This document shows, one piece after another, positions 1 to 3,097 of a DNA stretch of 12,672 bases. The notes beneath the pieces were generated by a model. It was not told where the DNA came from. It saw nothing but the letters and a program-made list of their open reading frames with translations, and ran no database searches. Numbering within the stretch: position 1 is the first letter of the stretch; each line of letters starts with the position of its first letter. The position numbers and the translations under genes were made by a program. Origin of the DNA: Actinomycetes bacterium (GTDB taxonomy: Bacteria; Actinomycetota; Actinomycetes; Mycobacteriales; Mycobacteriaceae); NCBI GenBank assembly GCA_022600695.1, contig JAHZJY010000073.1:1-12672 (forward strand), written 5' to 3'.

Positions 1-546
1 CAGCTGTACGGCGGTGCGCTGCGGATGACCCGAAACCCCACCGACGCCGAGGACCTGCTGCAGGAAACCATGGTCAAGGCCTACGCCGGATTCCGGTCCT
101 TCCGGGAGGGCACCAACCTCAAGGCCTGGCTGTACCGGATTCTGACCAACAGCTACATCAACGCCTACCGCAAGAAGCAGCGTCAGCCCGCCGAGTACCC
201 CACCGAGGAGATCACCGACTGGCAGTTGGCGGCCAGCGCCGAGCATACGTCCACCGGATTGCGCTCGGCGGAGGTCGAGGCGCTGGAAAATATGCCGGAC
301 AGCGAAATCAAAGAGGCGCTCCAGGCGTTACCAGAAGAGTTCCGGCTCGCGGTGTATCTAGCCGACGTCGAGGGCCTGCCGTACAAGGAGATCGCTGAGA
401 TCATGGAAACACCGATCGGGACCGTGATGTCCCGTCTGCACCGGGGTAGGCGTCAGTTGCGGACGCTGCTCACCGATGTCGCCCGTGACCGCGGGTTTAT
501 GCGGGGTCAGGATGAGGGCCACGAGGCTCAGGAGGCGACCTCGTGA
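1..546 (+). CDS. sigH: ECF sigma factor SigH, 5'-truncated by the window edge
   Basis: This is an extracytoplasmic-function sigma factor that directs RNA polymerase to oxidative- and heat-stress promoters (thioredoxin system, sigE, chaperones). The reading frame is open from base 1, so 182 residues are visible; family members are about 210-220 aa, so roughly 30-40 N-terminal residues lie upstream. Region 2 is seen at visible residues 1-60, with the [17 protein letters not shown] core-binding segment and a following [16 protein letters not shown] promoter-melting segment. Region 4 is near residues 105-160, with [16 protein letters not shown] and the helix-turn-helix [19 protein letters not shown] followed by HRGRRQLR. 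The ATG at 25 is internal to region 2 and is not the true start. The stop overlaps the rshA start by 4 bp, as expected for a sigma/anti-sigma pair. The symbol rests on the adjacent ZAS anti-sigma gene and the downstream gene order. Confidence 0.95.
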
Positions 547-827
547 GCATTGATGATCCCCAGCTCGACCCCGATCCCGGCCACGCCGACTGCGCGCTGG
601 TCATTCGCCAGGTCTGGGCGCTGCTCGACGGTGAGGTCACCGACGGCAGCCGTGCGGAGTTGCGCCGGCATCTCGAGGACTGCCCGGCCTGCCTGCGCCA
701 CTACGGGGTGGAGGAACGCATCAAGAAGCTCATCGCCACCAAGTGCAGCGGGGAGAAGGCCCCCGCCTACCTGGTCGAACGGGTGCGGATGGAAATCAGC
801 CGCACCACCATCATCCGCCGGGGCTGA
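543..827 (+). CDS. rshA: Zinc-binding anti-sigma factor RshA
   Basis: This 94-aa cytoplasmic anti-sigma factor is expected to bind SigH and release it on disulfide stress. The ZAS signature is present as H43-x3-C47-x2-C50 ([14 protein letters not shown]). C17 sits where the fourth metal ligand is found in the Streptomyces homologue RsrA, and a further C68 follows the motif. The GTG start overlaps the sigH stop (GTGA), which implies translational coupling and equal expression of sigma and anti-sigma. The gene ends in a dyad shared with the convergent bL37 gene. A second long + frame over the same bases (from 550) has a random arginine/serine/proline-rich composition and is rejected. That the protein is zinc-bound and redox-active is inferred from the family. 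Confidence 0.94.
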
Positions 828-853
828 TCACCGGGATCAAGCCGGGAGATCAG
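824..853. terminator. Possible bidirectional terminator between rshA and bL37
   Basis: The outer arms CTGATC (824-829) and GATCAG (848-853) are perfectly complementary. Inside them CCGG at 831-834 can pair with CCGG at 842-845. The rshA stop codon (825-827, + strand) and the bL37 stop codon (850-852, - strand) lie in opposite arms, so both convergent messages end in the same hairpin. Neither side has a clear U-run, so termination is only a suggestion. Confidence 0.35.
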
Positions 854-924
854 GAATTGGGTCGCTTGCCGTGGTTGGCCTTGCTGTGCTTGCGGTCGCG
901 CTTCTTCCGGCCACGTTTGGCCAT
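850..924 (-). CDS. 50S ribosomal protein bL37 (24 aa)
   Basis: This 24-codon gene lies antisense in the gap between rshA and the biotinyl protein. It starts MAKRGRKKRDRKHSK and ends NHGKRPNS, so about half the residues are lysine, arginine or histidine. I recognise it as bL37, the tiny mycobacterial large-subunit protein found in cryo-EM ribosome structures, where it is buried against 23S rRNA. A strong Shine-Dalgarno GGAGG (932-936 on the reverse strand) lies seven bases before the ATG at 924-922, which supports real translation and fixes the start. The neighbours run the other way, so it needs its own promoter in 937-1042; a GACAAT-type -10 is possible there but I do not call it. At this length it is easily missed by gene finders. 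The identification is from memory of the sequence and was not searched. Confidence 0.92.
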   Translation of the reverse strand: MAKRGRKKRDRKHSKANHGKRPNS

Positions 925-931
925 GGTTCTA

Positions 932-936
932 CCTCC
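932..936 (-). promoter_or_regulatory. Ribosome binding site of bL37
   Basis: GGAGG on the reverse strand, seven bases upstream of the bL37 ATG. It is one of the best Shine-Dalgarno matches in the window and is the main translational evidence for a 24-codon gene. Confidence 0.85.
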
Positions 937-1042
937 GAATGATCAGGATTTACCTCTATTGTCGCACGGCGCCGGAACCGCTCGGTGCGGCGGTGTTGTG
1001 GTTCGATAGAGCCTCAGGGCAGAGCTTTGGAGTGAGGGTGAC

Positions 1043-1261
1043 ATGGCCGAGGATGTGCGCGCCGAGATCGTGGCCAGTGTGTTGGAGGTCGTGGTCAGCA
1101 AGGGCGACCAGATCGGCCCCGGGGAAATCCTTGTCCTGCTCGAGTCGATGAAGATGGAGATTCCGGTGCTGGCCGAGGTCGCGGGGACCATCGCCGAGGT
1201 CAACGTGGCGGTCGGCGACGTCATCCAGGCCGGTCACCTCATCGCTGTCATCGACGACTAG
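1043..1261 (+). CDS. Small biotinylated carrier protein (TB7.3-type biotin/lipoyl-binding protein)
   Basis: This 72-aa stand-alone biotinyl domain has the canonical attachment motif ESMKMEIPV at residues 34-42, with K37 as the lysine expected to carry biotin. The two halves of the flattened barrel flank it: the first strands at residues 3-32 and the repeat-like GTIAEVNVAVGDVIQAGHLI at 48-67. It corresponds to the mycobacterial TB7.3 protein (Rv3221c in M. tuberculosis, from memory). Its role is uncertain: it may be a free carboxyl-carrier subunit used by an acyl-CoA carboxylase encoded elsewhere, since no carboxylase gene is adjacent. The ATG at 1043 follows a weak GTGAGGGTG purine stretch, and pdtaS follows after 9 bp, so the two are probably co-transcribed. 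Lipoylation is less likely than biotinylation because of the exact MKM core. Confidence 0.93.
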   Translation: MAEDVRAEIVASVLEVVVSKGDQIGPGEILVLLESMKMEIPVLAEVAGTIAEVNVAVGDVIQAGHLIAVIDD

Positions 1262-1270
1262 CGGCGGCGG

Positions 1271-2704
1271 ATGTCGACCCTCGGTGAGCTGCTCGCCGAG
1301 CACACCGATTTGCCCGGCAGCGTGGTGGATCACCTGCACGCCGTGGTGGGCGAGTGGCAACTGCTCGCCGATATGTCCTTCGGCGACCTGTTGATGTGGG
1401 TCCGCCGCGGGGATGGGGTGGACAACGCCGTGGTGTGCGTGGCGCAGTGCCGCCCCAATACCGCCCCGACCATGCTGATCACCGATGCGGTGAGCACCGT
1501 CGCGGCGGAGGAGGCCCTGGTGGGGACGGTTCCGGTGCGCTACCGCGGAGATGTGGTGGCGCTGCTGACCCGGCAGACCGCGGGGGACGGCCGCCGTACG
1601 TCCTCGCGGCTGGAGACCGCCTACCTGGACTGTGCCGCGACCCTGCTGGACATGGTGTCGGAGGGAACCTTTCCGAACGTCGGCCAGTCGGCGGTCTCGC
1701 GGTCCAGTCCCCGGGTGGGTGACGGCTTCATCCGCCTGGACGTCGAGGGTGTGGTCAGCTACGCCAGCCCCAATGCGCTCTCGGCCTGCCATCGCATGGG
1801 CCTGACCGCCGAACTCGAGGGGCACGCCCTCCTCGCGGTGACCCGCCCGCTGATATCCGACCCGTTCGAGGCGACGGAGTTGGCCAACCACATCGCAGAG
1901 TCGCTGACCGGGGGTGCCGGGATGCGACTGGAGGTCGACGCCGGCGGGGCGACCGTGCTGTTCCGCACGCTGCCGTTGGTGGTCGGCGGTCGGTCCGTCG
2001 GGGCCGCGGTACTGGTTCGTGATGTCACGGAGGTCAAGCGGCGCGACCGGGCGCTGCTGTCCAAGGACGCGACCATCCGGGAGATCCACCATCGGGTCAA
2101 GAACAACCTGCAGACCGTGGCGGCACTGCTGCGGCTTCAGGCCCGGCGCACCGCCAACGTGGAGGGCCGCCACGCGCTGCTGGAGTCGGTGCGCCGGGTC
2201 GCGGCCATTGCGGAGGTCCACGAGGCGCTGTCGATGTCGGTGGACGAGGAGGTCAATCTCGACGCGGTGATCGACCGCATCCTGCCGGTCATGAACGACG
2301 TGGTCCGCCTTGGCAGCCCGATCCGGATCAACCGGGAGGGCACGCTGGGGGTGCTCGACGCCGAGCGGGCCACCGCGCTGGTCATGGTGGTCACCGAACT
2401 GGTCCAAAACGCCGTCCAGCACGGGTTCGAGCACGCCCCCGATCCCGGGGCCGAGCGGGGGCGGGTGGTGATCCGGGCCGACCGTTCGGCGCGGTCGCTG
2501 AACATCGTGGTCCACGACGATGGGTGTGGTCTGCCGGCCGGGTTCAGCCTGGAGAGCTCCGAGCGGCTGGGCCTGCAGATCGTCCGGACCCTGGTGTCGG
2601 CCGAGTTGGACGGCACGCTGGAGATGCGCGCGGTCGCCGCTGGCGGCACGGATGCGGTGCTGCGGGTGCCGATCGGCCGCAAAAGAATCGCGGCCCCGGG
2701 CTGA
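1271..2704 (+). CDS. pdtaS: Cytosolic sensor histidine kinase PdtaS
   Basis: This 477-aa kinase autophosphorylates and passes phosphate to the RNA-binding ANTAR response regulator PdtaR, which is encoded elsewhere in mycobacteria. There is no transmembrane segment. An N-terminal GAF-like domain covers about residues 1-130 and a PAS-like domain about 150-255 (GDGFIRLDVEGVVSYASPNA). The HisKA_2-type dimerisation helix EIHHRVKNNLQTVAALLRLQ spans 271-290, with the phospho-acceptor at H273 or H274. The HATPase domain has the N-box ELVQNAVQH (376-384), DDGCGLP (416-422) and GLQIV (434-438). Family members are near 500 aa; from memory the M. tuberculosis protein carries a longer loop in the GAF domain near residues 75-90, which would account for most of the difference. 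The start has no clear Shine-Dalgarno and lies 9 bp after the biotin-protein stop, which suggests coupling. The stop codon sits in the loop of the whiB1 terminator hairpin. Confidence 0.95.
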   Translation: MSTLGELLAEHTDLPGSVVDHLHAVVGEWQLLADMSFGDLLMWVRRGDGVDNAVVCVAQCRPNTAPTMLITDAVSTVAAEEALVGTVPVRYRGDVVALLTRQTAGDGRRTSSRLETAYLDCAATLLDMVSEGTFPNVGQSAVSRSSPRVGDGFIRLDVEGVVSYASPNALSACHRMGLTAELEGHALLAVTRPLISDPFEATELANHIAESLTGGAGMRLEVDAGGATVLFRTLPLVVGGRSVGAAVLVRDVTEVKRRDRALLSKDATIREIHHRVKNNLQTVAALLRLQARRTANVEGRHALLESVRRVAAIAEVHEALSMSVDEEVNLDAVIDRILPVMNDVVRLGSPIRINREGTLGVLDAERATALVMVVTELVQNAVQHGFEHAPDPGAERGRVVIRADRSARSLNIVVHDDGCGLPAGFSLESSERLGLQIVRTLVSAELDGTLEMRAVAAGGTDAVLRVPIGRKRIAAPG

Positions 2705-3050: not shown

Positions 3051-3097
3051 CGGTTGTTAACCCGTGCACACACAAACGTTGTTGCACTGTTACACCG

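Follow-up and report, generated by a model that had tools for sequence, protein, structure and literature searches.

The gene at 850-924 and its neighbourhood

The window, i.e. the whole stretch of 12,672 nucleotides of Mycobacteriaceae DNA that was analysed, begins inside sigH, and a very short minus-strand gene lies between rshA and a carrier protein gene (Table 1). Its reading frame runs from an ATG at 924 to a stop codon at 852-850 and encodes MAKRGRKKRDRKHSKANHGKRPNS, with K, R or H at 13 of the 24 positions. The first-pass annotation, which had read a 24-codon gene with GGAGG, ATG and stop and a product about half basic, was thus confirmed. It had also placed the gene antisense beside the sigH-rshA pair. 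The opposite strand is correct, but the wording is loose because there is no overlap with either neighbour; the gene converges with rshA and diverges from the carrier protein gene.

Table 1 Features in the first part of the window
Feature	Position	Strand	Basis
sigH, cut by the contig edge	1..546	+	TIGR02947 matches 25-543 with 296.5 bits (cut-off 251.55); reading frame already open at base 1, which is also the first base of the contig
rshA, RsrA-type anti-sigma factor	543..827	+	TIGR03988, 92.7 bits (cut-off 62.5)
rshA/bL37 gap, 22 nt between convergent stops	828..849		Best hairpin -13.0 kcal/mol, not strong
bL37 gene, 24 codons and stop	850..924	-	Open reading frame; PDB and NCBIfam matches
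GGAGG Shine-Dalgarno sequence	932..936	-	7 nt from the ATG; GGAGG-like sequence also 5' of the genus copies
Extended -10-like element TG-C-GACAAT	958..966	-	Aligned upstream regions; predicted transcription start near 951
Biotin/lipoyl carrier protein gene, divergent from bL37	1043..1261	+	NF004547, 115.8 bits (cut-off 75)
pdtaS-like histidine kinase	1271..2704	+	Pfam GAF_PdtaS, E 2.9e-33

The protein matched three PDB chains over its full length (residues 1-24), namely 5o60_3 (E 8.2e-11), 7kgb_v (E 1.3e-10) and 8crx_V (E 3.2e-4). The two best 50S chains, 5o60 chain 3 and 7kgb chain v, which represent bL37 of mycobacterial ribosomes, have the same length of 24 residues and are each identical to the window protein at 23 of them; 5o60 differs in the last residue (S in the window, A in 5o60) and 7kgb at position 13 (H in the window, Y in 7kgb). 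Chain V of 8crx, the bL37 of a ribosome presumably from Cutibacterium acnes, also has the same length but is more distant. With the NCBIfam bL37 model NF047428 the score was 51.5 bits against a cut-off of 30 (E 8.2e-14), which places the protein in this family, whereas the planctomycete bL37 model NF047429 matched only residues 8-24 and, with 18.4 bits, fell short of its cut-off of 40. Judged from its sequence, the gene on the minus strand at 850-924 is bL37, as the first-pass annotation had recognised, and the full-length matches to 5o60_3 and 7kgb_v bear out the comparison with ribosome structures that it had proposed. A single bL37 match was found in the window's own assembly, which is 85.8% complete. 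Searches of the phage and plasmid collections gave no match at E≤1 in either, and an origin from such elements was accordingly rejected.

The gene itself is already known and not new, since the protein was named bL37 in 2017, at which time UniProt already listed its M. smegmatis form (PMC5876184, in the passages on this protein). The same passages describe its site as an RNA pocket of the 50S subunit, where it contacts H89 near the peptidyl transferase centre. In C. acnes, where the product was listed as a hypothetical protein, bL37 occupies a site of the same kind (PMC10085706, section on this protein). The suggestion that the gene may be missing from annotations therefore holds in part: a curated NCBI model, the M. 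smegmatis UniProt entry and the C. acnes hypothetical-protein annotation exist, and a Pfam search with the protein gave no match at E≤0.1. In Borrelia the pocket is filled by the N-terminal helix of uL30, an extension that belongs to a larger protein and has no gene of its own (PMC10618245, as far as its text on this pocket goes).

Distribution, constraint and loss of bL37

Of the 396 genomes of the genus, 386 have bL37 at E≤1e-5; among the 361 good genomes the count is 358. The family model at E≤0.01 detected it in 167 of 200 order-level genomes and in 201 of 296 class-level genomes, 190 of the latter over the cut-off. C. glutamicum alone matched among 14 control genomes. In 52 genus loci, among which one genome (G002) is represented twice, 50 distinct DNA sequences encode 9 proteins, and the crude pN/pS is 0.12; of the 24 codon columns, 15 show synonymous variation only, 7 differ in the encoded residue and 2 are invariant. 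When 96 distinct bL37 proteins from 207 loci were compared, leaving out the decayed or second copies at L062, L189 and L060, residues R11, N17, G19 and P22 never varied, and all four are present in the window protein. The very short length of the gene would fit an open reading frame that is there by chance, but this reading can practically be dismissed: the ribosome-chain matches refute it, and the NCBIfam match, the presence in nearly all genomes of the genus and the codon constraint speak against it as well.

Three good genomes of the genus, G075, G565 and G794, were without bL37 at E≤1e-5. G075 carries a decayed bL37 copy (locus L062) beside decayed sigH and rshA, and one count of bL37 presence, 98 of 98, includes this decayed copy. 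In G565 bL37 is absent, there is no close sigH (best 38% identity) and no pdtaS was found at E≤1e-30. Both genomes are single contigs of approximately 3.3 Mb, presumably the size of leprosy bacilli. The absence of an intact bL37 and of an intact sigH in two genomes of this size suggests that bL37 can be lost together with sigH. An earlier candidate, that reduced genomes such as G075 keep bL37 though they lack sigH, was rejected, the bL37 copy of this genome being decayed too. G794 has no close sigH (best 46%) and only a partial pdtaS match, so an assembly gap is possible in this case.

Two variations on the gene were seen. From position 3086 of locus L060 onward, genome G058 has a second bL37-like frame of 38 residues, 67% identical over 24 residues, which has neither a GGAGG nor an adjoining sigH; by eye it lies 3' of a gene for a short-chain dehydrogenase, and a two-component pair and a gene we take to be kdpA-like are nearby. 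Some genus copies also carry a C-terminal tail (e.g. NAGSKSVR, NCGSKSVR) and are 28 to 31 residues long compared to the usual 24 (L002, L004, L006, L014, L015, L020, L021, L022, L025, L027, L064, L128, L129, L131, L134, L136 and L141).

Adjacency to sigH-rshA, orientation and hairpins

In the genus and order set, in which some genomes occur twice, sigH lay on the strand opposite to bL37 in 112 of 119 loci, on the same strand in 1, and was not within the stretch in 6. Beyond the order, 32 bL37-bearing actinomycete families were sampled, f22 and f26, which also bear the gene, having been left out; in 30 of the 32, one or more loci place bL37 no further than about 3 kb from sigH or rshA. Among the 79 class-level genomes with matches listed for both genes, out of about 117 class-level bL37 places, the two genes were within 3.5 kb of each other in 62, on opposite strands in 53 and on the same strand in 9. 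The exceptions at family level are f29 and f31, in which bL37 stands apart from sigH-rshA (L173, L174 and L177-L181); we take f31 to be Streptomyces-like.

When the search was centred on sigH, with no presupposition of bL37, the latter was found in 69 of 80 loci. The set consists of the best-scoring matches to a single Nocardioides SigH and is weighted towards its family; the loci without bL37 belong mainly to Actinomadura and relatives, and one is truncated. The neighbours in the same 80 loci were rshA (79), SRAP (58), an alpha/beta hydrolase (49), aroA (23), the carrier gene (8) and pdtaS (2), so that bL37 is the most durable sigH neighbour after rshA among those tested. In the bL37-centred stretches of the 30 families, SRAP was present in 14, the carrier gene in 8 and pdtaS in 2. 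The entire block rearranges slowly, SRAP and the hydrolase often being kept too, which weakens any functional inference from adjacency. A linkage this durable may nevertheless have a functional reason, and we count this against the interpretation preferred below.

A limited literature search found no paper on the linkage of bL37 and sigH-rshA, and the relevant parts of two papers found in a search for a SigH-linked transcript over this place held nothing bearing on bL37. Smoke condensate raises Rv3222c and sigH (PMC8554204) and Rv3222c appears in a CRISPRi table (PMC12687858); as far as these sections go, neither has a bearing on bL37.

The orientation of bL37 has changed repeatedly. In Nocardioides (loci among L224-L267) a short block holding the gene has been inverted in place again and again, so that it stands in either orientation beside rshA, and by eye the -10-like element precedes bL37 and a hairpin follows it in both. 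Mapped onto a sigH tree with 69 loci, the orientation requires 12 parsimony changes, at least 3 of which are forced by well-supported branches; support is modest, with 10 of 66 inner branches starred in this tree and 11 of 47 in the tree used for hairpins. Six pairs of opposite orientation were compared. Three show an inverted match of about 200-320 bp that includes the upstream region, while in the other three it is 91-96 bp and reaches barely beyond the gene, the next ~370 bp being inverted as well in two of them. In families f44 and f48 and in 23 of the 69 linked sigH-centred loci, bL37 directly follows rshA on the same strand. Given the repeated inversions in place, it is adjacency that is preserved and not orientation.

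The mycobacterial gaps between rshA and bL37 fall into two kinds. All 18 gaps of at least 40 nt, from 17 genomes as G002 is represented twice (L064, L187), contain a hairpin of -25.0 kcal/mol or lower, compared to 1 of 33 shorter gaps with a hairpin below -20. Many of the genus loci are best-scoring matches, and the split is therefore not an unbiased census; it is also partly one of length, short gaps offering little room for a hairpin. When the 17 long gaps were shuffled ten times each, -20 was reached in 58 of 170 cases, -25 in 10 and the gap's own value in 1, so that -20 alone is a loose mark and the observed hairpins lie well beyond it. Strong hairpins also follow bL37 in several lineages outside Mycobacterium. 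The medians are -31.1 to -41.5 kcal/mol for the loci sampled from f14, f15, f16, f31, the remaining f1 genera, opposite-strand f37 and further class-level families; same-strand f37 has -27.5. Mononucleotide shuffles of these lineages gave -19.5 to -24.4. The genus reaches only -22.9 (shuffled -19.2) in the median, as it mixes gaps with and without a hairpin. On a second sigH tree the hairpin state requires 10 changes, at least 3 of them forced. The window and its closest relative on this tree (L188) are both of the short-gap kind, and the strong hairpin expected of a shared bidirectional terminator was not found in the window. With a short gap of this kind, overlapping convergent transcripts are plausible in the short-gap species, the window included, and interference by read-through would be likeliest there.

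Promoter-like elements and the relation to SigH

The extended -10-like element TGNGANANT was present in 45 of 51 genus bL37 upstream regions (G002 counted once), compared to 0.6 expected from first-order resampling. Its exact form was found in only 12 of 74 order-level regions (1.0 expected) and 19 of 61 class-level regions (1.1 expected), which we count against the preferred interpretation, as we do the strict TTGACA/TATAAT sigma-70 scan of 500-1300, which was empty. Five unlinked f31 copies have TAGACT, TAAACT or TAGGCT upstream. In the seven same-strand f37 loci a -10-like element stands between rshA and bL37, in the exact form in 4 of the 7. A SigH-type motif (GGAA[CT]-N16-21-GTT) directed toward bL37 was found in 0 of 43 genus loci (0.7 expected), while the control, the same motif 5' of sigH, was found in 24 of 49 (2.1 expected); G002 is again represented twice in these motif counts. 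From the conservation of the element we infer that it is probably used as the bL37 promoter, and bL37 would be independent of SigH. Control of bL37 by SigH was rejected as the main reading on the 0 of 43 result. Of the link to SigH/RshA raised by the first-pass annotation, the adjacency is thus real and very old, while control by SigH is not supported, in view of the missing motif, the gene's own -10-like element and the changes of orientation in place.

We consider it very probable that bL37 is an independent gene that carries a promoter-like element and a Shine-Dalgarno sequence of its own, stands beside sigH-rshA by kept gene order and is not transcribed by SigH. The -10-like element and the GGAGG would drive its expression, and the 24-residue product would fill the 50S RNA pocket beside H89 near the peptidyl transferase centre, as in solved mycobacterial ribosomes. 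Its position would then reflect an old gene order that has been retained rather than transcription by SigH. This interpretation builds on the identity, constraint, neighbourhood and motif conservation observed here and takes the binding site from the published structures.

The alternatives give the neighbourhood an effect on transcription. SigH-driven transcription of sigH-rshA could enter bL37 from the opposite side and lower it under thiol or heat stress, giving bL37-poor ribosomes. The stops 22 nt apart in the window and the 32 of 33 short mycobacterial gaps without a strong hairpin would allow this; sigH depends on its own product in M. tuberculosis, and the other genes under SigH control include rpmE, which encodes a ribosomal protein (PMC4803200, in the part on SigH targets). 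We find it unlikely, however, as strong hairpins stand in all the longer mycobacterial gaps and after bL37 in several other lineages, the sigH-rshA message of C. glutamicum is about 1 kb and a terminator is shown (PMC3489674, in the part on this transcript), and the flips in place mean that the convergent layout is not kept everywhere. Conversely, bL37 transcription, strong in fast growth, could run antisense into rshA and lower RshA, tying SigH control to growth rate. The conserved -10-like element does point at rshA, across a gap that mostly lacks a hairpin when short, yet the hairpins of the longer gaps and the loss of any antisense layout in the flipped loci make this very improbable. The same low probability attaches to a functional adjacency in which SigH would control bL37 by sense read-through as an ancestral or recurrent state. 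The same-strand copies just 3' of rshA are what this would predict, but those of f37 keep the -10-like element between the two genes, and the opposite orientation is commoner (53 of 62 among the matches listed).

A narrower form, which we regard as quite unlikely, concerns the hairpin-less mycobacteria: there the convergent units would overlap, activation of SigH would lower bL37, and the ribosomes built by stressed cells would be without a protein beside the peptidyl transferase centre. If so, hairpin-keeping species would not show the drop in bL37, which provides a ready-made comparison. Translation inhibitors induce SigR (PMC4921905) and, taking this together with the control of rpmE in the part of PMC4803200 cited above, SigH touches translation elsewhere, so that a hypothetical link between SigH and bL37 is not absurd. 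The part of these results that may be useful is the neighbourhood: bL37 kept beside sigH, the flips in Nocardioides and the split of the sampled mycobacteria by the hairpin. With these, an effect of a redox sigma factor on ribosome make-up becomes directly testable.

A SigH-type motif, GGAAC-N16-GTT, was also observed at 974-997 of the window on the plus strand. It is directed at the carrier gene and overlaps a weak terminator-like site at 977-994; within the genus, only 2 of 43 loci, one of them the window, have such a motif toward this gene (0.9 expected).
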